From Tenericutes bacterium ADurb.Bin239 (GTDB lineage Bacteria; Bacillota_I; Bacilli_A; RFN20; CAG-826): 58,414 nucleotides of DNA. This document shows, one piece after another, positions 39,228 to 58,414 of this stretch. The translations under genes and the position numbers were made by a program. The DNA lies in the NCBI GenBank assembly GCA_002069815.1, contig MWCB01000006.1, positions 1 through 58,414 on the forward strand, in the 5' to 3' direction. How positions within the stretch are numbered: the first letter of the stretch is position 1; each line of letters begins with the position of its first letter. The notes under the pieces are model-generated. The model did no database searches and had not been told where the DNA came from. It was given only the letters and a program-made list of their open reading frames with translations.

Positions 39228-40538
39228 TTACACTACTGGAGGGGTTAAGGATAAGCTTCCTTCAAACGCAAATGGCGCTAAGGTGATAGCGTCATAGGCG
39301 CCAAGTGGACCAGTAAAGTAAATATCAGCGGTTGGGTTAGCGACAAAGAAGTCTCTAAACGCTGCTTGATCGTCAATGCCCATGTGGTAGTTAAGTGAAA
39401 GTTTAACTTCAAATTCAAAGTTATTACCATCTTTACCAGTTAAGACGACATCAGCGTGTTTACCTAATTCTAAGGAACCAGGTTCAACAGGATTGCCATC
39501 ACGATCAAGCATTTTTTTGTAACGAAGTGGGAAGTTAAGAATAACAGTCGTTCCCACTTTATGTTTGAGTGGTCCGCTTAATTCATTACCAATGTCGAGT
39601 TGTTCCGCAAAATCGTTAGCGTTAACAACGATTGCTTCTGGTGCAGCGATAGTGGGGTGATCAGCGGCCGCCACTTCAGTAACCCGTTTAATCCATTGTA
39701 ATTGTGGTAAACCATGGTAAACGGTATATTGACCGATTACTTCGTATAATTTACCAATTTGCATATATTCACGGTAGTCATTAATTTTGAAGAGACCTAA
39801 TGCAACATCGCCATCACAAATAACACCGTTATTCCAGTCGGCAAAGTACCCGTTGAAGTAACCATACACTTTAACAATTTTGCCCATTGGCTGAGCCCGC
39901 GCTTCATCTAAAGTGAATTCATAAATAATTTCTTGCGGATGAAGAATCATATCGATATTGAATCGCGTTGAACGTTCACCAATATGAATGGTCGCATATA
40001 AACGCGCCGCTTTTGCTGGGGGAACAGTATGAATTGGGTTACCGCCACTGTCGTACTCGGCATCATAGCGCGGGTAGTCAGGAATAGCGTAATCGTCACC
40101 CTTATCATCAACCGCAAATTCAAAACTAGCGTAGTTTTCACCTTCGAGATACGAATAGGTAACAGTATATTCTGGATAGAGATAGACGCCATTAATTTCG
40201 TCTTCATATTTTAATTCTCCGTAGGTAATGAGAATTAAGTCGTTACCATACTTTAATTCGGGAATTGGTAACGGTGGTTCAGCATCGGCCCGAAATACGT
40301 TGGTCGGAATCGTGCTTCCCGTTCTTTCTATAACTAGTGGAACACTTCTTGCAATATAGTTAACAGCAATATTGTGTTCTTCATCGGTAAGAACTACTTC
40401 AGGCTCACTTATTGATTCGCCTGTAGTACTTACACTCGGCCCTTCGCTTTGTGGTGCTTCTGAACTTGGGTCTTTACAACCAGCGAGTAAGCCAACAATC
40501 GCAAATAGTAAGCCAATTTTTAGAAATGTCTTTTTCAT
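39228..40538 (-). CDS. Lipoprotein with probable OB-fold domain, in sugar ABC operon
   Basis: The 436 residues begin with a lipoprotein signal peptide (LLFAIVGLLAGC) and a Ser/Glu/Pro-rich spacer. A beta-rich domain follows (about 60-200). The segment MGKIVKVYGYFNGYFADWNNGVICDGDVALGLF...GKLYEVIGQYTVYHGLPQLQ (about 217-285) resembles an OB-fold, and a last domain runs about 300-436. It is the last gene of the operon, after the solute-binding protein, so it may assist polymer or oligosaccharide capture. No named family was recognised. Confidence 0.85.
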   Translation of the reverse strand: MKKTFLKIGLLFAIVGLLAGCKDPSSEAPQSEGPSVSTTGESISEPEVVLTDEEHNIAVNYIARSVPLVIERTGSTIPTNVFRADAEPPLPIPELKYGNDLILITYGELKYEDEINGVYLYPEYTVTYSYLEGENYASFEFAVDDKGDDYAIPDYPRYDAEYDSGGNPIHTVPPAKAARLYATIHIGERSTRFNIDMILHPQEIIYEFTLDEARAQPMGKIVKVYGYFNGYFADWNNGVICDGDVALGLFKINDYREYMQIGKLYEVIGQYTVYHGLPQLQWIKRVTEVAAADHPTIAAPEAIVVNANDFAEQLDIGNELSGPLKHKVGTTVILNFPLRYKKMLDRDGNPVEPGSLELGKHADVVLTGKDGNNFEFEVKLSLNYHMGIDDQAAFRDFFVANPTADIYFTGPLGAYDAITLAPFAFEGSLSLTPPVV

Positions 40539-40563
40539 ATTTTTCTCCTTTTATTATTTATTT

Positions 40564-42153
40564 TTAACTTTGAACATACCGCGCAAGTTTGACAACAACA
40601 TCGTTTAAAACTTGTTCTGGTGTTTTACCTTTGAATAATTCAGCCATAACTGATTCGACGGTATTGCGGATTTCACTTGAACCAAGGAAGCCTGGATCAA
40701 CAAACTTAATCCACTTTTTATCAGGATTCATATAAACATCTGCTTGGAGTAACGCCGTCTTTCGAATTACTTTTTCGCGTTCCGTTCCATCAGTTTGTTG
40801 TAAGAACTGGCTATACATTAAGTAATCTTGATAGCGTTGGCTGTTAGGATCAATCTTCGTGGGGTCTAAGACGGGGAAGTAGGACGTTGCTTTTCCAAAT
40901 TCGTAATTTGCTTCATAAGTTAAGAAGCGAAGGAGACGCCACGCCGCTAACCGTTCGGCTTGAGCTTTAGGATCAGCACCACGACCAACAGCAAAAATAG
41001 CAAGGTTGGTGCCTTGGGCAATAACCGATTTAGCCGCAACTAAATCACCATTGTATGGAATCGCATTAATTGATAAATCAAATGGATAATCGGTGGTGCC
41101 CCCTGGTAAATTTTCACCAACACCAGCACTACTACTAATCGTTAAGACGAGTTTACCTTCTTTAAAGGGGACGGATGAATAGAGCGCTTGCCCAAAGTTA
41201 TCAGGTAAACCAATAATTCCATCATCGTAAAGTTGTTTAAAGTAAGCAAGGGCGGCTAAGGTTTTCGTACGGTGTGGTTCTTCTTGGAAACGAATGTATC
41301 CATTTTGAATCGTACTTCCTTTTTCAGTATAAGCTGCACCCCATTGCTTGATAGTCGTAATAAAGAAGTTACTAGCGCTATCCCAGCTGAAGGGGATAAA
41401 TTGTTCTTCGCTAACTAAACTCATATCAACCGCAATGTCTGGTTTTAAATTAGGATCAAAATTTTCTGGTTTAGGAACAGCTGTTCCATCTTTCTTAACT
41501 AACTTACCAAACCATCCATTATTTTTGGCAACGGCTTTTAGTTTAGGACCAACGACCGCTAAATCTTGCCATGTTTTGGGAATAAAGATGCTAGCATCCT
41601 TTTTCTTAGCGGCATCAAAGAAACTTTGGTTAGCAATCATAACTTCGGTTGACTTATTAAAAGGTAATCCGTATGTTGCTTGGTCCGATAAAGCATGAAT
41701 TTCCGCCATATAGTCGGCGTTATATTCATCAATATTAACTCCGTATTGTGGGTGGTTAATATAGTTTGTGGGGTTACCAATGTTCACTAAAATATTTGCA
41801 TTAATGTAACCGACTAAGTGGTCTGGATAACCATTAGCGATATGGGGATACGTATTGGTGCTAATTGAGCCGTTAATGGCTTGTTGAAGGTTTGGATACC
41901 CTTGTTTTGATTCATATAGCACACGAATATCGGGGTTTTCACTCTCAAAGCGAGTAAAGAGAGGGGTTAGGGCACTCGTAACCGATGAGCCAAACCCAGT
42001 CCAAAACTTAACTTCAATTTTTTCACCTGTGTATGGGAGAGAATCCCCACTTGTGGTTACAGTTTCCGATGGCATCGATGGACGTAAACAACCCGCAAGC
42101 GTCGCTAGTGTTAAGACCGATACCGCTGTAAATATGAATTTTCTAAATTTCAT
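40564..42153 (-). CDS. Carbohydrate ABC transporter solute-binding lipoprotein (family 1)
   Basis: The 529 residues begin with a signal peptide and lipobox LAGC. The mature part follows extracellular solute-binding family 1 (VKFWTGFGSSVTSALTPLFTRFESENPDIRV, YGLPFNKSTEVMIANQSFF, FKEGKLVLTISSSAG). It is longer than the 410-450 usual for maltose or glycerol-phosphate binding proteins, with insertions around 215-260. It delivers an oligosaccharide to the two upstream-encoded permeases. The sugar is not identifiable; the starch-binding surface proteins at 52749-58333 make maltodextrins plausible. Confidence 0.92.
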   Translation of the reverse strand: MKFRKFIFTAVSVLTLATLAGCLRPSMPSETVTTSGDSLPYTGEKIEVKFWTGFGSSVTSALTPLFTRFESENPDIRVLYESKQGYPNLQQAINGSISTNTYPHIANGYPDHLVGYINANILVNIGNPTNYINHPQYGVNIDEYNADYMAEIHALSDQATYGLPFNKSTEVMIANQSFFDAAKKKDASIFIPKTWQDLAVVGPKLKAVAKNNGWFGKLVKKDGTAVPKPENFDPNLKPDIAVDMSLVSEEQFIPFSWDSASNFFITTIKQWGAAYTEKGSTIQNGYIRFQEEPHRTKTLAALAYFKQLYDDGIIGLPDNFGQALYSSVPFKEGKLVLTISSSAGVGENLPGGTTDYPFDLSINAIPYNGDLVAAKSVIAQGTNLAIFAVGRGADPKAQAERLAAWRLLRFLTYEANYEFGKATSYFPVLDPTKIDPNSQRYQDYLMYSQFLQQTDGTEREKVIRKTALLQADVYMNPDKKWIKFVDPGFLGSSEIRNTVESVMAELFKGKTPEQVLNDVVVKLARYVQS

Positions 42154-42200
42154 ATACCTTTTTCCTTTCTTGTATTAATTATATAACGATTAGTGAGTCA

Positions 42201-43262
42201 CTAACCTTTAATACCACTGCGTGATACCCCGCTCATGATATATTTTCGGAAGAAAATAAAGACAATAAGCAGTGGCGCACTAACAATCATTGATGCCGCA
42301 ATTTTAACGGTGTCATAACTAGCAAATTGACCAGTAAAGGTTGACATTAACCCGTTACTAACAAGCCGCATCGTATGGTTGTAATTAAATAGTTTTTGAA
42401 TAGTGGGGTTATACCCTTGGGCAATAAGGGTCGGCCATAAGTAAGCATTCCAACTCCCCATCACGTTTAAGATAATAATCGTAACAATTGTCGGCATTCC
42501 AATTGGAATCATAACCCGCCATAAATAACTAAACTCTCCATACCCATCAACTTTCGCGGCAAGGAAGAGTTCGTTTGGTATTTGTTGGAATGTTTGTCTT
42601 AAATAGAAAATATAGAAGACACTAACACCGTGAACTAGGATCAAGGCGCGATATGTATTTTCCCATCCTAACCATTTCGCGGTTTGAATATTGGTAATAA
42701 GCATCATTTCACCTGGAATCATCATCGTCGCCAAAAGGATCGCAAACAGGAAGTTTTTGCCTTTAAAATCAAGACGAGCAAAAGCAAATGATGCTAAAAC
42801 GGTTGTAATAATCGTAAATACCGTGGAAACAACCGCGACAATAATGGTATTTAAAAAGTACGGAATAAAGCTACGTTCTGATGATTTCATAACGATATCT
42901 AACAAAGCTTCGTTCATATCTTTAAGCGGATTTTTAAGATCAGCCCCTAATACAATCCTAAAGTTAACGAAACTTGGACTAGTCGTAAATAAACGTAATC
43001 CCGTTGAAACTTCTCGTTGGTACTCAAGAGGTGTCTTAACCGAAACAGAAATCATAAACCAGAACGGTAAGAGCATAAAGAACGCAAATAGAGTCAAAAA
43101 CGTATACACAAGAATTTTTACAATAATTGCTCGTGTTTTGTATTCTTTAGCAATTTCGTAAGATGGTTGAAAGCGTTCATCATCGATATGCGCAAGTTTA
43201 GCTTCTTCTTCCGCAGTGAGTTCCACTACGTCTTCAGCAACTTTTTTCTCTTTATCAGTCAT
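42201..43262 (-). CDS. Carbohydrate ABC transporter permease, MalG type
   Basis: The 353-residue membrane protein has six membrane segments after an acidic cytoplasmic N-terminal extension of about 45 residues. The EAA loop that contacts the ATPase reads ELFLAAKVDGYGEFSYLWRVMIPIGMP. A GGAGG site precedes the start. It pairs with the 43278 permease. Confidence 0.93.
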   Translation of the reverse strand: MTDKEKKVAEDVVELTAEEEAKLAHIDDERFQPSYEIAKEYKTRAIIVKILVYTFLTLFAFFMLLPFWFMISVSVKTPLEYQREVSTGLRLFTTSPSFVNFRIVLGADLKNPLKDMNEALLDIVMKSSERSFIPYFLNTIIVAVVSTVFTIITTVLASFAFARLDFKGKNFLFAILLATMMIPGEMMLITNIQTAKWLGWENTYRALILVHGVSVFYIFYLRQTFQQIPNELFLAAKVDGYGEFSYLWRVMIPIGMPTIVTIIILNVMGSWNAYLWPTLIAQGYNPTIQKLFNYNHTMRLVSNGLMSTFTGQFASYDTVKIAASMIVSAPLLIVFIFFRKYIMSGVSRSGIKG

Positions 43263-43277
43263 TGCTTCAACCTCCTT

Positions 43278-44384
43278 CTAGTAGTGCACCCGCTTCTTCG
43301 AGACTTGCATCTGAATTAGCGTGATGAATAAGATAATAACAAGTAAGATAACCGATCCAGCGGCGGCAAGCGGAATATTTGGTTCAACGTTGCGGTTCAT
43401 ATAAATGTACCCGACAACTGTAATCCATAAGGTCCGTGTTTCGCCCCCGAAGTGAATCGGTCCGCCCCCAACAATCGAGATAACGCTTTGGTAGGCTTTA
43501 AAGGCACCAATAAAGGACGTAATCGTAATATATAGGATTTGCGGACTTAAAAGGGGAACAGTAATGCGCCTAAAGATGGTGCTACGATTTGATCCATCAA
43601 TCCGCGCCGCGTCATAATACTGCCGGTCAATACTTGCAAGCCCGCTCATAAACACGAGAATTTTAAAGGCGAGCCCGGCCCAAATTGATTGGACGGTAAT
43701 CGCAAACCCAAGTGAAAATTTAGATAACGGGATTGTTCCTCCACCGCCATCCCATAATGGGCGAATCCATGAAACTGGTTTTCCACCAAAAAATTGAATA
43801 AATTGGTTCATAATTCCCCCAACTTCATGGGAGAAAATAGTGTTGAAAACCATCCCCAAGGCAATGCCGTTAGTGACATAAGGGAGGAAGAAAATGGTTT
43901 GATACGTTGCGCGTAATGGCTTAATTGAGTTAAGCGATACTGCCAGTAACAATGAAATCATAATCGTAAGTGGTACGGAAATGATTGTTAAAATAGCGGT
44001 GTTAAGCAACGCGTTTCGAAACAGCGGATCTTTTAACACGTAGGCAAAGTTAGCAAAACCTATGATTGGTTTGTAGGGTCTTAGAAAGGGAACGTCTGGT
44101 TCGACAATACGGAAGTACTCGGCCCACCATTCGGGGTTATTGTACATATCTAATTGTCGTAAATAACTTGCAAGGGCAATACTACCCGTCCCACCTTGGA
44201 AATAAAAGTCTTTAACAAAAGCAATAAATGTGGTGTTGAAAATCGGGAAGATGGTAAATAAAAGTAAGAAGAAAAGTGCTGGTAATAATGCAATCAGGGC
44301 TTTGAGCCAAATCGGCATTGATACACTTTTTTTCGTTTGCATCGGCCCTTTATCAAGATAGAGGGCTCCTTCTTTACTACTCAT
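43278..44384 (-). CDS. Carbohydrate ABC transporter permease, MalF/LacF type
   Basis: The 368 residues carry six or more membrane segments and the EAA loop QYYDAARIDGSNRSTIFRRITVPLLSP. A long extracytoplasmic loop lies between the first two membrane segments (about 55-120). GAAAGGAGG precedes the ATG. It is followed 15 bases later by the MalG-type gene. Confidence 0.93.
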   Translation of the reverse strand: MSSKEGALYLDKGPMQTKKSVSMPIWLKALIALLPALFFLLLFTIFPIFNTTFIAFVKDFYFQGGTGSIALASYLRQLDMYNNPEWWAEYFRIVEPDVPFLRPYKPIIGFANFAYVLKDPLFRNALLNTAILTIISVPLTIMISLLLAVSLNSIKPLRATYQTIFFLPYVTNGIALGMVFNTIFSHEVGGIMNQFIQFFGGKPVSWIRPLWDGGGGTIPLSKFSLGFAITVQSIWAGLAFKILVFMSGLASIDRQYYDAARIDGSNRSTIFRRITVPLLSPQILYITITSFIGAFKAYQSVISIVGGGPIHFGGETRTLWITVVGYIYMNRNVEPNIPLAAAGSVILLVIILFITLIQMQVSKKRVHY

Positions 44385-44427
44385 GGCCTACCTCCTTTCG
44401 TGCATACATATGGGTCATCGCGCTACC

Positions 44428-45828
44428 CTATAAGATACGGGAGCCGTCAATATCAAAGAGATAGAAGCGTTTGGGATAAACTTTAATCACTTTATCTTTA
44501 ACTTTATGACGTTCTTCCGCGGGGATAATTACGCGAATGCGGTGTTTTTGACCAACAACATTAGCGACGATAGTAATATCGCGACCAATGTGTTCAATAT
44601 AGAGCACTTCGACATCAATGGCAGGATTTTCGTTTTTATCAAGCGTAAATGCTTCAGGACGAACGCCAATCTTAACATCACGATCAGCGCCCGCTTCAAC
44701 AATAAACTTACCGACTTCTTCTTCAAAGTCACCATAAGTCATACGGTAGCCACCACCAACAATAGCTTCATAAATACTTTCAAGATTAACTTCGCCTTCA
44801 ATGACTTTCGGGACGAATTTATGTTTTTTCTTCGGTGCTAATTTAGCAAAGAATTCTTTAATTCCTTTTTTCTTTGGTTCTTCTTCAACTACTACTGGTT
44901 CTTCTTCAACGTACTCAACGCCTAAACTAGTAAAGTAATCAGCTTTCGTACCATTATAACCGCCTTCAACCGCGACATCGTAAATTCTTTCGTCAAAGAA
45001 ATCAAACTTTCCTTTTGATGTAAGGCCTTTATGATAAACATTGCCGTGTAACAAGACACGACCATTCTTTAGTTCACCATCAAAGATATTAATCGCAGGA
45101 GAACCTAAGAATTTCGCGACAAATAAGTTAACTGGTTCTTCATACACTGTTTGCGGAGCGTCAATTTGGTGAACGACACCACGGCGCATAACAACGATGA
45201 AGTCACTAATACTCATTGCTTCTTCTTGGTCGTGGGTAACAAAAATAGTAGTAACTTTCGTATCCCGTTGAATCCGGCGAATTTCTTCACGAGTTTGAAG
45301 CCGCAACCGTGCGTCTAAGTTTGATAGTGGTTCGTCAAGTAATAAAACTTGCGGCCGTTTAGAAAGCGCACGAGCAATGGCAACCCGTTGTTGTTGACCA
45401 CCTGATAATTGTTTGGGTAGGCGGTCGAGCAAGTTCCCAATATCGACTAAATTAGCGACTTCTTGAGCAATTTGCTCCATTTCGGTTTTTTCAAGTTTCG
45501 GCCGCACATTTTCAAGTGGGAATGTAATATTTTGCCGAACTGTGAAATGCGGATATAGCGCATAGTTTTGAAACACTAAACCGATTCCGCGGTTTTCGGG
45601 GGGAACATCAGTAACATCACGATCACCAAACCAAATCTTACCAGCGGTGGGCTTGTGTAATCCGGCGATCATGTAGAGAGTCGTTGATTTTCCACAACCT
45701 GAAGGTCCTAAAAGCCCAACAAGCTTACCATCTGGAATTGTAAAATTCATCTGGTCAACAGCTTTGACGACGGGAGCTCCTTTGACTCCAGGGAAGTGTT
45801 TCGATAGATTATCAAGTCTAACTTCCAT
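44428..45828 (-). CDS. Carbohydrate ABC transporter ATPase, MalK/UgpC type with internal insertion
   Basis: The 466 residues contain a full ABC domain: Walker A GPSGCGKST (41-49), signature LSGGQQQRVA (141-150), Walker B VLLLDEPLSN (161-170), H-loop VTHD (197-200). A TOBE/MalK regulatory domain follows, with GVRPEAF at 388-394. The protein is about 100 residues longer than usual because of an insertion at about 280-385. The insertion contains a repeated segment (IYDVAVEGGY at 282 and IYEAIVGGGY at 352) around an acidic then lysine-rich linker. It is the first gene of the sugar operon, with a GCAGGAGG site. Confidence 0.94.
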   Translation of the reverse strand: MEVRLDNLSKHFPGVKGAPVVKAVDQMNFTIPDGKLVGLLGPSGCGKSTTLYMIAGLHKPTAGKIWFGDRDVTDVPPENRGIGLVFQNYALYPHFTVRQNITFPLENVRPKLEKTEMEQIAQEVANLVDIGNLLDRLPKQLSGGQQQRVAIARALSKRPQVLLLDEPLSNLDARLRLQTREEIRRIQRDTKVTTIFVTHDQEEAMSISDFIVVMRRGVVHQIDAPQTVYEEPVNLFVAKFLGSPAINIFDGELKNGRVLLHGNVYHKGLTSKGKFDFFDERIYDVAVEGGYNGTKADYFTSLGVEYVEEEPVVVEEEPKKKGIKEFFAKLAPKKKHKFVPKVIEGEVNLESIYEAIVGGGYRMTYGDFEEEVGKFIVEAGADRDVKIGVRPEAFTLDKNENPAIDVEVLYIEHIGRDITIVANVVGQKHRIRVIIPAEERHKVKDKVIKVYPKRFYLFDIDGSRIL

Positions 45829-52683: not shown

Positions 52684-52712
52684 CAAAAAGGTCGGATTTT
52701 GAATCCAACCTT
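52684..52712 (-). terminator. Terminator of surface protein gene 1
   Basis: AAGGTTGGAT pairs with ATCCGACCTT (one G-U) around a short loop, followed by TTT on the transcribed strand. Confidence 0.85.
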
Positions 52713-52748: not shown

Positions 52749-54467
52749 TTAACTATAACGGCGTTTCTTTGATAATAATTTGAAACCCGCCAAAGAAATT
52801 AAAGCCACCACGCCGAGAAGACTAATAATAGGGATATTGTTTGTGTCACTATTACTTACTAGCGGAGCACCACTTGGAGGAATGGTCCGATCCAAGAAAT
52901 TCTCAAACATTACGGTTCCGTATTTTTTCACAATATAGTCATAACGAGCCATCGCTTGCGCCAATAAGTCGCCATTAGGATTTGCAACAGCAGTCTTTAA
53001 ATAAGTTTTTACGTCGGATTCGACTAAATCATATTGATTTCTTAATGTGTCGTTCCAATCTGCTGAATTTAAATTTAACGCCGACCCTGTCGCATCACAC
53101 GTTGCGGTATGATTAAGAATCTGTATCCCAAATAATGTTGCTTTATGATGGACTTCACTAACAGCACTCCATGTTTCTGTTACTTGATTGTAAACGTTTT
53201 TACCTAGTTCCCACACTATATCTGCCGTTTTAACATTCGCGGCATCCGGTAAACCATTATTAAAAATCACATTTTCGGGCAGATGCGTGCTAGGGAAAAA
53301 CCACGAATAATAGCCGTGTCCATAGTTAGCCATTGCTGCACCAGGCCATTCGCCCGTTACTTGGCGACCATCACCATCCCATGTATAAAGATAAACATCA
53401 CCACTTGAAATAGCGTGATTTGGGTCATAGAACACTAAAGTTGTATCTTGTGATTCAACATATTTCCCGTATAACGTTAAATCAGCGGTTAATAGACCTG
53501 GCTCATAAGCAATCGTTAATTCAGAATCCGTGTACCAACCCGCAAAACGTTTATTAGCACGACGAATATAGCACGGTTCATAAGTTAATCCGTCTACTGC
53601 CATTTCTTTATCAATAACTGTTGTCCCATCATACTTAGTAACTGTTTTATATGTTGAACCAGCGTTATGGAAGAAGATTTGTTTAGCGACCATATCCACC
53701 ACTACTTGATAATTACCAGCAACTTTAACTTTTACGTTATCACTACCTATTGCTTTTTCAATAGCGGTGCCGGCGGTTGATTTAGCGGTATTAAACATAT
53801 CAAAGCCAAATCCACCAAGCCATGTTTTATAAATATAAATTTTAAATTCGTTGGCACTAAAGGCCCGTGTTAAAGCCATATAGCGACCATCAAAACCACC
53901 AATAGAGGTAAGTCGATTCGCCGCGATATTTTGATTAGGATCGCCCCAACCATCAAGCGCATCGCCAACAGCAATATAAGCACTCGTCCCTGACAGCGGG
54001 AAAGAAGCAGCATCATAATCAACCGTAAAGCGATAATCTCCCGCTGGTGAAGATTCACTACCATCTGGATTATAAACTTTAATTGTTATAGTGCCTGGAT
54101 AGAGTATAGCAAAGTCATCAACACCAAAAGAAACAACATAGTCCCAAGCATTAGAATTAGCGGGGTCATAACCTTCAGCGTTAAAACGTTGATGCGGATT
54201 AACACCTTTTTTAATAAGTTGATAACGACCTGAATCAGTAATAGTCGTCGTTAAAGTATAAATATCTGAGCCCGCCTCTGTTTCACTAAATTCATAAGTC
54301 GCGGAATTTTCGTCCCACCCAATTGCATCACCCGCTAAGACAGGAATATCTGTAGCAGCTTGCGCTATTAGGCTATTTTTGCCGAGTAATGGATTAATAA
54401 TGGCACTGCCAAGCAGTGTAGCGATAGCAAATTTAAAGAGTCTCCTTTTATTATTTTTGTTCATCAA
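52749..54467 (-). CDS. Membrane-anchored surface protein with starch-binding-like modules, paralog 1
   Basis: The 572 residues have a signal peptide (about 1-38, ending AQAA). Two beta-rich modules follow (about 40-150, with YPGTITIKVYNPDGSE; and about 160-265, with YIAVGDALDGWG...NEFKIYIYKTWLGGFGF) resembling starch-binding modules of SusE/F type. Then come an InlB-like repeat (KRFAGWYTDSELTIAYEPG...LTLYGKYV) and a CBM26-like module (VYLYTWDGDG, EWPGAAM, NVIFNNG). A helical domain with CDATG is followed by a C-terminal membrane helix and KKRR. It is therefore exported and anchored, most likely to bind alpha-glucans. No catalytic domain is seen. It is monocistronic, with GGAGG before the start. 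Confidence 0.88.
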   Translation of the reverse strand: MMNKNNKRRLFKFAIATLLGSAIINPLLGKNSLIAQAATDIPVLAGDAIGWDENSATYEFSETEAGSDIYTLTTTITDSGRYQLIKKGVNPHQRFNAEGYDPANSNAWDYVVSFGVDDFAILYPGTITIKVYNPDGSESSPAGDYRFTVDYDAASFPLSGTSAYIAVGDALDGWGDPNQNIAANRLTSIGGFDGRYMALTRAFSANEFKIYIYKTWLGGFGFDMFNTAKSTAGTAIEKAIGSDNVKVKVAGNYQVVVDMVAKQIFFHNAGSTYKTVTKYDGTTVIDKEMAVDGLTYEPCYIRRANKRFAGWYTDSELTIAYEPGLLTADLTLYGKYVESQDTTLVFYDPNHAISSGDVYLYTWDGDGRQVTGEWPGAAMANYGHGYYSWFFPSTHLPENVIFNNGLPDAANVKTADIVWELGKNVYNQVTETWSAVSEVHHKATLFGIQILNHTATCDATGSALNLNSADWNDTLRNQYDLVESDVKTYLKTAVANPNGDLLAQAMARYDYIVKKYGTVMFENFLDRTIPPSGAPLVSNSDTNNIPIISLLGVVALISLAGFKLLSKKRRYS

Positions 54468-54524
54468 TCACACCTCCTTTTTAAAAGTACTTTAAAACAT
54501 TACTGAGACTTTATTCTCATTTAC

Positions 54525-54553
54525 AATATACAACTTATGATTTTTATTTACAA
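54525..54553 (-). promoter_or_regulatory. Promoter of surface protein gene 1
   Basis: TTGTAA (plus 54548-54553) and TATATT (plus 54525-54530) are 17 bases apart. Confidence 0.6.
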
Positions 54554-54588
54554 TAACGGTGATGAACAAATATTCATAAATTGATAAA

Positions 54589-54619
54589 GAAAAAAGGGTC
54601 AATATTTAATTCGACCCTA
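54589..54619 (-). terminator. Terminator of surface protein gene 2
   Basis: AGGGTC pairs with GACCCT on the transcribed strand, followed by TTTTT. Confidence 0.75.
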
Positions 54620-54672
54620 TGTAAAAAGGAATAGTAATTAGTTTTTCCAAAAACCATTGATTCTTTAGTCGT

Positions 54673-56382
54673 TTATTTATCACATCGCTTTTTCGCTAAG
54701 AGCATAATACCAGCAATAGTGATAAAAGCCATGATGCCAAATGAGCTAGCGACAAATATATTACGCTTTTCACTAACAATTAATAACGGAGCACCACTTG
54801 GCGGCAATGTTCGATCAATAAAGTTAGCAAACGTTGCTATTCCATATTTTTGCACAATAAAGTCATAGCGAGCAACGGCTTGCCCAACTAAATCACCCGT
54901 ATAAGAAGCAAACGCATCTTGTAAATAGGTTTTAATAGCAGCGTCAAGTCCATCAAATTCATCCGCTAATTCGTTCCACTTGTCGACTGGAACATTATTT
55001 GTCGCCCCTGTTGCATCACAAAACCTAGTTTCATGGAGAATCCGAATGGCAAAAAGCGTTGCCCCATGGTGTGCTGCACTCATGTCGACCCAACTAGAAC
55101 CAGCATATTTATAAAAGTTTTTTTCAATCTCCCAAGTAAAAGTAGCAGTTTGTGCACCACCCATCCCAGTATTAAAGATAACGTATTGCGAAACATTAGC
55201 GGCAGCAACATCAAGCGAATAATAACTATAGCCGTGATTTGTCATCTTTGTGCCAGGCCATTCACCTAGCGTTTCAGCATCATCAATATTCCACCCATAG
55301 ACATATACATCTTTCGTGTCATCACCAGCAGTCAGGGCTTTAGAACGATCATAGAATGATAATTTAGTGTCAATATTCGTGTAATAATACCCATATAAAT
55401 TCATCGCTGTTGGGACTGGACCCGGCACATATTCAATTGTAAGTTCGGGGTCAGTGTACCATCCGCCAAAGCGTTTACCGTTTATCTGATTATTAGATGG
55501 GGTATATTCTGTTACACCATTAAACACCACTTCTTTTTCAATTAAGGTCGTCCCATCATACTTTGAAACGATTTGATAAGTTGAACCGCTATTATGGAAT
55601 TGAATTTTCCGTTCTTTGATATCTAAAACAACCATATAATTATCCGCGGTTTTCACATTAATGTTGTTAACATACATATCGCCCCATTCAATTTTGTTGT
55701 AGGCGTTAGAATGTGCTCCATCAACATGGGAATAACCAAAGCTCTCATATCTTTCCCACAGAAAAACTTTAAACTCATCGGCGGCAAAGTGTCGCGTAAG
55801 CGCCATATAGCGACCATTAAAGTCTGATGCTAATCCTAATAGTCTATTATTGTCATTACTTTGATTCCATGTCTCATCAACCGCAAGACCACCTAATACC
55901 GTTGCACTTTTTTCGGTAGTAGGCATTGTTGCAAAATCAATCGTAAAACGTCGCGCTCCTGCGGGTGAGGTCGGACTATCTTCTGGGTTATATACTTTAA
56001 TAGTGATTGTCCCTGGATATAAAACATAAAAACTTTCATCATCATGACTAAGCAAATAGACAAGATAACTAGCGTTTGAATTATAAAAATCATAGGCCGC
56101 TGCGGGAATCCGGTTTTCCGTCCCTTCGCGTGTAATTTTGTACTGATCAACTTCGGTCGCGGCTACTGTTATAGTGTAAATATCGGAATCCGCTGGACTT
56201 TCAATAAATTTCCGTTCAGGATCAGTATTATTCCACCCCCTTGATTCACTCATTAACACTAAATTTGTCGCCGCCTCTACTTTCACCAATTCTTTACGAT
56301 GCGTGTTTAGCATTATAGCTACACCAAATAACAACACTGTTGTAACACCTTTTAAAAGCCATCTTTTGTTTTCATTCTTCAT
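54673..56382 (-). CDS. Membrane-anchored surface protein with starch-binding-like modules, paralog 2
   Basis: This 569-residue paralog has the same architecture as the 52749 protein: signal peptide, two beta modules (YPGTITIKVYNPED; EFKVFLWERYESFGYS), InlB-like repeat (GKRFGGWYTDPELTIEYVPG) and CBM26-like module (VYVYGWNIDD, EWPGTKM, YVIFNTG). A helical domain with RFCDATGATNN, then PPSGAPL and a C-terminal membrane helix with KKR, complete it. Parts of its C-terminal domain are almost identical at the DNA level to paralog 3. It has its own promoter, a GGGGAG site and its own terminator. Alpha-glucan binding is inferred from module type. Confidence 0.87.
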   Translation of the reverse strand: MKNENKRWLLKGVTTVLLFGVAIMLNTHRKELVKVEAATNLVLMSESRGWNNTDPERKFIESPADSDIYTITVAATEVDQYKITREGTENRIPAAAYDFYNSNASYLVYLLSHDDESFYVLYPGTITIKVYNPEDSPTSPAGARRFTIDFATMPTTEKSATVLGGLAVDETWNQSNDNNRLLGLASDFNGRYMALTRHFAADEFKVFLWERYESFGYSHVDGAHSNAYNKIEWGDMYVNNINVKTADNYMVVLDIKERKIQFHNSGSTYQIVSKYDGTTLIEKEVVFNGVTEYTPSNNQINGKRFGGWYTDPELTIEYVPGPVPTAMNLYGYYYTNIDTKLSFYDRSKALTAGDDTKDVYVYGWNIDDAETLGEWPGTKMTNHGYSYYSLDVAAANVSQYVIFNTGMGGAQTATFTWEIEKNFYKYAGSSWVDMSAAHHGATLFAIRILHETRFCDATGATNNVPVDKWNELADEFDGLDAAIKTYLQDAFASYTGDLVGQAVARYDFIVQKYGIATFANFIDRTLPPSGAPLLIVSEKRNIFVASSFGIMAFITIAGIMLLAKKRCDK

Positions 56383-56414
56383 ATTTTGATCTCCCCTTTG
56401 TCAAATAGAATGTT

Positions 56415-56433
56415 AGTAACGATTTTAGTTACT
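56415..56433. repeat. Inverted repeat in the leader of surface protein gene 2
   Basis: AGTAAC and GTTACT are perfect complements across 7 bases, between the promoter and the ribosome binding site. Confidence 0.4.
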
Positions 56434-56453
56434 GAAAAAATATCTTCACTTTC

Positions 56454-56482
56454 ACTATATACTTTGTCTAAAACCTTTTCAA
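56454..56482 (-). promoter_or_regulatory. Promoter of surface protein gene 2
   Basis: TTGAAA (plus 56477-56482) and TATAGT (plus 56454-56459) are 17 bases apart, about 72 bases before the ATG. Confidence 0.65.
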
Positions 56483-56530
56483 TACTCTATGAAATATTTC
56501 GCCCAAATTAATGTTAAAAAAGTATCAAAA

Positions 56531-56564
56531 GAAAAAGGGTCAAGTCGGAAACTCAACCCTTTAA
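56531..56564 (-). terminator. Terminator of surface protein gene 3
   Basis: AAAGGGTTGAG pairs with CTTGACCCTTT (one mismatch or wobble) around a short loop, followed by TTC on the transcribed strand. Confidence 0.8.
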
Positions 56565-56620
56565 GGAGTAATTTACACTAGTTTTTATAAGGAAAACTAG
56601 CAAACTTTGGGTGATAAAAA

Positions 56621-58333
56621 TTATTTAGTGCGACGCTTACGAGCAAATAACCCAACGCCAGCAAGGGTAATAAAGGCCATAAAGGCAAAACCACCCGCCA
56701 CAATGAGACTGCGATGTTCAGTCACGATTGGTTGCCGCACTGGTGAAGGTCCCACGACCCGTTCCATAAAGTTTGCGTATGTTGCAATACCGTATTTCTG
56801 GACAATGTAATCATAACGAGCTACTGCTTGGGCCACTAAGTCCCCACCCACAAGCGCTGGCGCATCTCTAAGCTCAGCCTTTACTTCCGCACTAAGTGCA
56901 TTAAATTCGCCCGCTAGTTCAGTCCATTTATCAGCAGGAACTTTATTAGTCGCCCCTGTTGCATCACAAAGCCTAGTTTCATGGAGAATCCGAATGGCAA
57001 AAAGAGTGGCCGCGTGATGCACATCAGTCATCACTGCCCATACGTATTGTGTGCCGTCATGACCAAATAAATTCTTGCCAACCTCCCACACCAGATCTGG
57101 TGTTTGATTACCCGCGTTATTATGGAAGATAATATTTTCAGTCACATTCGCTGCCACAACATCAAAACTATGATATCCATAACCATGTTTGGTCATTTTA
57201 CTACCTGGCCACGTGCCTAATGGTTGATTGCCATCGCTATTCCAACCATAAGCATACATATCACCAACCGAAATAACTTCACCCCGGTCAAATACTGTTA
57301 ATTTTGTATCAACATTATCAACATATTTAGCGTATAAATTCATATCAGAATCTACGGCACCAGGAACGTATCTATTCGTTAATCCAGCATCTGTGTACCA
57401 TCCTTCTATTCGTTTGCCAGCCTTCGTGACATATGTTGGATGATAGTCAATGCCACTCCAGGCCGCTTCTTTTTCAAGTAGTTCTGCTCCGTAATACTTA
57501 GAAACAGTCTTGGATGTCGTTCCTTCATTATGAACATAGAGTTTCATTGTTTTGGTGTCCGCAACAACCATGTAGTTGGCCGCGGCCGTTACCTTAATGT
57601 TGCTTCCTGCTTGTTCTAAAACACCAGCAGCGTTGGATCTTAGCGCATCAAATGATGACCAACCAAAATCGCCACGCCAAGTTTTCCACATAAACATTTT
57701 AAATTCGCCACCAGCGGTAAAGCTTCTCGTTATTGTGTAATAGCGCCCTTCCGAGCTAGCAACCCCATAGAGCCTATTAGCTTCATACTCCGTTTTCCAA
57801 GAATCTTGTCCGGCAAAAGCACTTCCCGCTAAAACAAAGTAACTCAAGCCACCATAGTTAACACCAGTAACATCAACGGTAATGCGGCGTGGTCCCGCTG
57901 GTGACATTTCATCAGCGTCAGGATTATAAAGTTTAACCGTAAGGGACGCTGTTGGAAGCATCACAAAGATAGCTTGATCTTCATTACCAGGGTCTCCTTC
58001 AGCAAAAACAATGTTCCCATGATTTGAATTAGCCTTATCAAATTGTTGGGCTTTAAACCGTTCCCATGTTCCTTGTTTGACAATTTGAACCGTTGTACTT
58101 GGTTTATCAGTGAACGATTTGACGTAAATGTCTGAGTCGGCTGGGTCTTCTTGCATCACGAACCCATCTGCACCATTTTCCCATCCAATATACTCACCTA
58201 CAACGACGGGGATGTTAGTAAGGGCATCGACTTTCACTACCTCTTGGCGGTGCATTGCTGGGGTTAAAGCCATGCCAAAGAGCAGTGTTATAATTACACC
58301 TTTCATTAGCCATCCCTTATTTTTCGTCTTCAT
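56621..58333 (-). CDS. Membrane-anchored surface protein with starch-binding-like modules, paralog 3
   Basis: The 570 residues repeat the layout of the other two: signal peptide, beta modules (SLTVKLYNPDADE; FKMFMWKTWRGDFGWS), InlB-like repeat (GKRIEGWYTDAGLTNRYVPG), CBM26-like module (MYAYGWNSDG, TWPGSKM, NIIFHNN). A helical domain with RLCDATGATNK and a C-terminal helix ending RKRRTK follow. The PSGAPL motif before the helix is replaced by GPSPVRQPIV. No ribosome binding site lies directly before the ATG; an AAAGGAGAG stretch sits 47-55 bases upstream inside a potential pseudoknot. The promoter is probably outside the window. Confidence 0.86.
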   Translation of the reverse strand: MKTKNKGWLMKGVIITLLFGMALTPAMHRQEVVKVDALTNIPVVVGEYIGWENGADGFVMQEDPADSDIYVKSFTDKPSTTVQIVKQGTWERFKAQQFDKANSNHGNIVFAEGDPGNEDQAIFVMLPTASLTVKLYNPDADEMSPAGPRRITVDVTGVNYGGLSYFVLAGSAFAGQDSWKTEYEANRLYGVASSEGRYYTITRSFTAGGEFKMFMWKTWRGDFGWSSFDALRSNAAGVLEQAGSNIKVTAAANYMVVADTKTMKLYVHNEGTTSKTVSKYYGAELLEKEAAWSGIDYHPTYVTKAGKRIEGWYTDAGLTNRYVPGAVDSDMNLYAKYVDNVDTKLTVFDRGEVISVGDMYAYGWNSDGNQPLGTWPGSKMTKHGYGYHSFDVVAANVTENIIFHNNAGNQTPDLVWEVGKNLFGHDGTQYVWAVMTDVHHAATLFAIRILHETRLCDATGATNKVPADKWTELAGEFNALSAEVKAELRDAPALVGGDLVAQAVARYDYIVQKYGIATYANFMERVVGPSPVRQPIVTEHRSLIVAGGFAFMAFITLAGVGLFARKRRTK

Positions 58334-58344
58334 ATTTTGACGTA

Positions 58345-58396
58345 TTATTCAGTTAAGCCTAGTTTGATGACTGAATAACTTCTCTCCTTTCTAGGC
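58345..58396 (-). promoter_or_regulatory. Potential pseudoknot/hairpin switch in the leader of surface protein gene 3
   Basis: In transcript order: GCCTAG, then AAAGGAGAGAAG, then TTATTCAG, then CTAGGC, then CTGAATAA. GCCTAG/CTAGGC (6 bp) and TTATTCAG/CTGAATAA (8 bp) are both perfect and interleaved, the topology of an H-type pseudoknot or of two exclusive hairpins. The only Shine-Dalgarno-like stretch lies in the first loop. Confidence 0.45.
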
Positions 58397-58414
58397 TACA
58401 ATGTAATAGCTGTG

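Follow-up and report, generated by a model that had tools for sequence, protein, structure and literature searches.

SusE and SusF of Bacteroides thetaiotaomicron are non-catalytic surface binders of starch; both are lipoproteins of the outer membrane that carry X25 modules in tandem and are encoded beside SusC and SusD. Amy13K of the Bacillota starch degrader Eubacterium rectale, an amylase by its Protein Data Bank (PDB) name, is surface-located and carries a CBM26 module. Ruminococcus bromii, also of the Bacillota, likewise has CBM26 on its amylases, and its Sas6, Sas20 and Doc22 proteins are exported and non-catalytic, with CBM26 or CBM26-like modules (PMC9112005). Here we describe a window consisting of the entire contig C6 (58,414 bases) from the assembly of Tenericutes bacterium ADurb.Bin239 (1.29 Mb, 68 contigs, 94% complete), in which three paralogous genes, referred to as genes 1, 2 and 3, encode anchored CBM26 proteins and the end of an IS110-family mobile element lies directly in front of gene 3. 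The three proteins would represent a Sus-like division of labour, in which binding and cutting fall to different proteins, within a Bacilli lineage that has small genomes and has been reported from anaerobic digesters. The element end is the more surprising of the two subjects and of wider importance.

All three genes are on the minus strand. Gene 3 (56621..58333, 570 amino acids (aa)) comes first in reading order, followed by gene 2 (54673..56382, 569 aa) and gene 1 (52749..54467, 572 aa). These coordinates are those of the open reading frame (ORF) list, in which gene 1 has a TTG start; an ATG at 54464 is equally likely. An earlier interpretation made from the DNA letters, hereafter the sequence-only reading, had described three paralogs of about 570 residues, each with a signal peptide and a C-terminal membrane anchor, and this was borne out: the proteins are homologous over their full length (45% identity to gene 1 for gene 2, 40% for gene 3), and each combines a hydrophobic N-terminal stretch with a single C-terminal membrane-spanning stretch and a KKR or RKR tail. 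The N-terminal regions contain no cysteine. It was also correct that no catalytic domain is visible in the trio, as Pfam and NCBIfam scans of genes 1 to 3 returned no catalytic family (the lone NCBIfam match fell far under its cut-off). The Pfam scan found neither a dockerin nor a cohesin in any of the three proteins.

The predicted CBM26-like starch module was recovered in profile searches. All three copies exceed the PF16738 cut-off of 28.1 bits in the protein scan (42.7, 43.0 and 45.2 bits for genes 1, 2 and 3), and they map on the minus strand to 53253..53402 in gene 1 (45.8 bits), 55141..55314 in gene 2 (47.2 bits) and 57092..57262 in gene 3 (50.2 bits). A profile of the trio module, made from five sequences, matched R. 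bromii Amy16 (7.5e-8) and Amy4 (3.3e-7), Amy13K (1e-6) and Sas6 (6.6e-5) in the PDB. A WPG motif and the Y and W residues of a VY-Y-W stretch are invariant in all five aligned sequences. Within the source genome, CBM26 above the cut-off is confined to the trio, and across the family it occurs in 56 of 146 genomes at E<=1e-3 and over the cut-off in 45 of the 146. Its carriers at seven family loci, read by eye, include both enzymes and non-catalytic proteins. For instance, UBA1361, a genome of the same genus as the source, also has CBM26 on an apparent GH13 enzyme (by eye, no scan). Relatives of UBA1361 are named among the hydrolysers of biogas plants and microalgae digesters in PMC10356833 and PMC11915838.

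Two SusE/F-like modules and an InlB-type repeat had also been proposed for each protein. For module 2 this holds narrowly in gene 3 (57518..57844, minus strand), where PF16411 scores 28.0 bits against a cut-off of 27.5. The corresponding stretch of gene 1 (53655..53984, minus strand) scores 19.8 bits, below the cut-off, and that of gene 2 (55582..55908, minus strand) is homologous by alignment with no Pfam match; tandem PF16411 matches are absent from genes 1 to 3. Compared by hhalign, module 2 gave a probability of 2.8% with the SusE/F-like protein encoded on contig C7 and of 18.6% with module 1. The InlB-type repeat (Flg_new/List_Bact_rpt, PF09479, cut-off 27) passes in one protein in the protein scan (27.5 bits in gene 3; 26.3 and 19.3 in the others) and in two of the three genes in the genome scan (30.0, 30.3 and 21.7 bits).

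Each protein closes with a helical module and its membrane anchor (minus strand: 56624..57025 in gene 3, from alignments A2 and A8, and 54676..55077 in gene 2 and 52752..53156 in gene 1, both by alignment). Alignment A8 has 28 rows, namely the three window copies, loci L012 and L013, and 23 of 29 loci; L052, L055, L056 and L067, which match elsewhere in the protein, L057, which is the window itself, and the interrupted L058 were left out. All 28 rows agree at one cysteine and one tryptophan, after which come an ARYDYI-x-x-KYG-like stretch, the membrane span and a basic tail. Searching with a profile of these 28 copies recovered the module from 38 of the 57 genomes examined within the family. 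Across a class-wide sample, 22 of 247 genomes had it: 19 belong to that family and 3 lie outside it (weak matches, E 2e-4 to 8e-4). Other carriers include Endonuclease I proteins (secreted nucleases) and Big-domain proteins, and no Pfam or NCBIfam entry matched the window copies. The conserved helical domain with CDATG that the sequence-only reading had pointed out is indeed present in the trio, but a starch-specific role falls away in view of its family-wide use as an anchor on nucleases and Big-domain proteins: judged by its distribution, it is a family-restricted surface-anchor module and not glycan-specific. The C-terminal span is the likely anchor of the trio proteins, because no sortase (PF04203) match was found in the 94% complete genome, whereas 3 of 14 control genomes have one. 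Two small exported proteins of 258 and 265 aa are encoded on contig C14 (L025, 5179-5955 and 6138-6935); one has a CBM26-like stretch below the cut-off, and both have an apparent degenerate anchor module.

The source genome contains ten GH13 (PF00128) matches in eight frames, four of which read as exported (N-termini judged by eye). A cluster on contig C7 encodes a SusF_SusE/Flg_new lipoprotein (SusF_SusE 30.5 bits against a cut-off of 27.5), an exported PUD-CBM48-GH13 protein with a C-terminal membrane span, a 4-alpha-glucanotransferase (MalQ; TIGR00217 above cut-off), a GH13 lipoprotein with SusG_C, and a MalEFG/MalK-type importer composed of MalG- and MalF-like permeases, a binding protein and a UgpC/MalK-type ATPase. 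Contig C8 adds another PUD-CBM48-GH13 protein and an 894-aa lipoprotein with Flg_new and GH13. With exported GH13 enzymes on C7 and C8, the description of the trio as a Sus-like system without enzymes had to be abandoned, and a system self-contained at this locus is not supported. The MalK-type importer noted 7 kb away does exist in the window (39228-45828), but a functional link to the trio could not be upheld: it lies beyond two membrane-protein genes, tuf, fusA, rpsG and rpsL, its best score is Ugp-like with all scores below cut-offs, and its profile scores give no sign of maltodextrin specificity.

We consider it probable that genes 1 to 3 encode non-catalytic, membrane-anchored alpha-glucan-binding surface proteins. 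The CBM26 module, the anchor, the absent catalytic family, the exported GH13 enzymes and the C7 cluster are given by sequence; actual starch binding, cooperation with the C7 and C8 enzymes and surface exposure we infer for the trio. Once exported, CBM26 would point outwards, probably together with the X25-like module 2, on a stalk made up of the remaining beta modules and the helical module, and the single C-terminal membrane span would hold the protein. The trio would thereby retain starch or related alpha-glucans on the cell surface for the separately encoded exported GH13 enzymes of C7 and C8, which may cut them there, and the C7 maltodextrin-type ATP-binding cassette (ABC) importer may take up the products. 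The sequence-only reading had likewise suggested surface retention of alpha-glucans with degradation elsewhere; the real CBM26, the non-catalytic nature of the proteins and the GH13 enzymes elsewhere in the genome agree with this, and the retention itself we infer.

The trio shares export, the absence of catalytic domains and CBM26 with Sas6, Sas20 and Doc22, but has a C-terminal span and the family-specific helical module where these have dockerin docking to scaffoldin. Like SusE and SusF, its members would be non-catalytic surface binders of starch, and module 2 of gene 3 narrowly matches PF16411; unlike them, the trio has one SusE/F-like module only and is anchored by a C-terminal span. CBM26 is common to the trio and Amy13K, although the catalytic domain is not. 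The division of labour proposed here would use a family-specific membrane-anchor module rather than a sortase, a dockerin or SusCD.

Several observations weigh against a role of the trio in starch capture. The three genes are not adjacent to any starch gene. Module 1, the other module proposed to be SusE/F-like, matched nothing in profile searches of any of the three proteins. AlphaFold models from shallow alignments were poor, with a mean predicted local distance difference test (pLDDT) score of 39.6 for the full-length model and 34.2 for the other, and a Foldseek search with the former gave nothing at E<=0.001; SusE stood at ranks 4 and 7 among best matches of E 0.19-0.46 and was not used as proof. 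The corresponding position of UBA1361, upstream of rpsL-rpsG-fus-tuf, is occupied by genes for three M6-peptidase-like lipoproteins (the one that was scanned scored below the cut-off), for a LacI-type regulator and for a chimera of 383 aa (L035, 7638-8789) in which an N-terminal solute-binding protein is fused to a Flg_new/CBM26/anchor part. A second UBA1361 copy is interrupted, and the homologue in the relative G012 is frameshifted. Because these copies are chimeric, interrupted or frameshifted, trio-type proteins appear to be dispensable or in flux in relatives. The same damaged copies, together with the IS110-family element at the start of gene 3, might suggest that the trio itself is an array of duplicated surface antigens that is decaying and now has little function; this is hard to reconcile with three intact ORFs and with CBM26 aromatics conserved despite only 45% and 40% identity to gene 1, and we regard it as very improbable.

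A less remote alternative, although still an unlikely one, is that the proteins are general surface adhesins in which CBM26 is one of several carbohydrate modules, and that host, algal or community polysaccharides are bound for attachment and not for feeding. The missing catalytic partner at the trio locus, the multi-module stalk with its InlB-type repeat and the use of the anchor module by non-feeding surface proteins would all fit such a role. However, the trio CBM26 is closest to the starch-binding CBM26s of amylases and Sas6, and part of the coding capacity of the genome goes to exported GH13 enzymes. The R. bromii amylosome offers a further model, since its proteins have CBM26 and X25-like modules (PMC9112005), and the trio could by analogy consist of amylosome parts that assemble with enzymes via cohesin-dockerin contacts. 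Given that none of the three proteins has a dockerin or cohesin match and each has its own membrane anchor, this is disfavoured and scarcely credible. Membrane-anchored alpha-glucan binding remains our preferred reading of the trio.

The sequence-only reading had assigned each gene its own promoter or leader and terminator. The leader of gene 3, however, is the left end of an IS110-family element (58340..58414, minus strand), which lies directly before the gene and carries a Shine-Dalgarno-like AAAGGAG between two interleaved, overlapping stems; the contig stops 81 nucleotides (nt) upstream of gene 3. This 75-nt end recurs unchanged at six other contig ends of the same genome, over 60-75 nt (as far as the contigs reach), and a copy with 93% identity lies inside contig C9. 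The genes directly after the six contig-end copies encode a cytidine deaminase, a 506-aa exported protein, an ArsC/Spx-like protein, a 291-aa membrane protein, translation initiation factor 2 (infB) and an RnfD/NqrB-type protein, and the C9 copy precedes the start codon of a TIM-barrel protein. A covariance model of the left end found it in 6 of 58 genomes, the source genome included. In all 20 left-end copies collected (18 of the 19 covariance matches, with one in G024 C8 at E 0.0037 left out, plus those of G078 and G069), an ATG begins 7-11 nt beyond the second stem region. Element ends were seen, apart from the window (58340-58414), on contigs C1, C3, C5, C17-C20, C28, C33, C38, C39 and C45, and in relatives at L144 and L152-L154.

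The right end of the element was found at 7 of the 66 contig ends examined (of 136 on the 68 contigs; 3 of the 66 read N). All seven lie directly beside a purine-rich sequence of Shine-Dalgarno type (GGAGG in five cases, GAAGG and AGAGG in one each). Where both sides are visible in relatives, the same layout is present in six (G028, G078, G069, G022, G392 and G052) and absent in G061. Two empty sites are available for comparison. At the start of C18 the rplJ leader is uninterrupted (AAGGAGGTAGAACATATG), and at the end of C3 the same leader runs up to GGAGG and continues as the element; probably the element is polymorphic in the population, with filled and empty rplJ alleles in one assembly. 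Similarly, the leader of gene 2 (GGGGAGATCAAAATATG) equals what remains of the leader of gene 3 (TCAAAATATG) exactly, up to the junction. Both the C18 rplJ leader and the gene 2 leader support an insertion between the Shine-Dalgarno sequence and the start codon.

In the relative G028, the same sequence is the end of a full IS110-family element whose DEDD transposase scores above the cut-offs (PF01548 119.4 bits, PF02371 84.5 bits), and this element sits between two genes that are only 2-12 nt apart in the source genome and in G032. Relatives of the G028 transposase occur in 14 of 95 genomes, and 12 of 20 transposase matches were inspected for the leader layout. The relative in G061, with a 48% identical transposase, does not precede a gene, and the leader is missing from four relatives with 37-39% identity. 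A transposase of the G028 type was not found in the source assembly, as would be expected if its contigs break at copies of the element. The two stems are conserved through change: in G022 (transposase 54% identical), both sides have changed with pairing kept in 4 of the 7 base pairs in one stem and in 7 of the 9 in the other, and in G013 compensatory changes on both sides affect 1 of 7 and 0 of 9 pairs, respectively. Three candidate identities for the 75 nt were rejected. A known RNA family received no Rfam match (tRNAs and two sub-threshold matches all fell elsewhere), an ordinary host leader is excluded by the position at the end of the full G028 element, and an assembly adaptor is excluded by the constant location just before a start codon and the compensatory recoding in G022 and G013.

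The target of the element was examined with the left/right guide logic of a predicted target loop, which follows PMC11208160, using six elements whose guide strands and flanks were read by eye (G061 was left out, having no gene behind it). The right-strand guide pairs better with the Shine-Dalgarno side of its own element than with those of the others (44 against a mean of 32.0), with only 5 of 720 permutations and 0 of 2000 shuffles as good. The left-strand guide, in contrast, shows no preference for its own target side in the six elements (40 against 40.3). We think it quite probable that the guide RNA of this IS110-family element is tuned to a generic translation-initiation signal, and that the element inserts exactly between the native Shine-Dalgarno sequence and the start codon. 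In the end that faces the gene it would bring its own Shine-Dalgarno sequence, within a conserved leader of two stems (switch-like or pseudoknotted), so that even essential genes (infB; rplJ) could be hit and would probably still be translated. That infB carries an insertion suggests that it is still translated. In gene 3, the insertion would have split the native Shine-Dalgarno sequence from the start site, and the end of the element itself seems to provide a replacement. The C9 copy, which looks decayed, and the copies in G001 C14 and G013 C2, which stand alone with no transposase, are three cases that an intact element does not explain.

The G028 relative, with its DEDD transposase and upstream non-coding region, resembles the IS110 family, including IS621 with its bridge RNA and the seekRNA elements, as described in PMC11208160 and PMC11187229. 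The element before gene 3 differs from these in sitting at a generic Shine-Dalgarno-to-start-codon signal and in having a structured replacement leader at its left end. No description of Shine-Dalgarno, start-codon or ribosome-binding-site targeting by IS110 elements was found among the titles and listings of open-licence papers examined, or in the passages on these terms in these two papers. If the proposal is true, an RNA-guided transposon that replaces translation starts instead of destroying them would represent a new target strategy, and such targeting would explain how an IS110 element finds many tolerable sites within one genome. The element would also offer a natural translation leader, together with guide pairs on which bridge-RNA targeting can be tested.

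With respect to the other expression signals claimed for the trio, a terminator-like hairpin does follow each gene on the minus strand (56534..56562 with 13 pairs for gene 3, 54595..54618 with 8 pairs for gene 2, and 52688..52712 with 11 pairs for gene 1), the total of four terminator-like sites being no excess over shuffles (4.7 +/- 2.2). A promoter-like site upstream of gene 2 (56454..56482, minus strand) matches the consensus at 10 of 12 positions, a consensus match only, with a site total not above shuffles. Genes 2 and 3 share 33 identical bases at the start of the anchor module (window 55000-55056 and 56945-57005). Over 20 codons there, nucleotide identity is 95%, compared with 37-75% in other 20-codon blocks, and because this is well above the rest, the two paralogues likely recombined at that point. 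Elsewhere in the genome, an open frame of 24,307 aa is an artefact composed of nearly all unread bases (N), and a separate multi-copy sequence common to the starts of C13, C29, C30 and C32 is probably a second mobile element.

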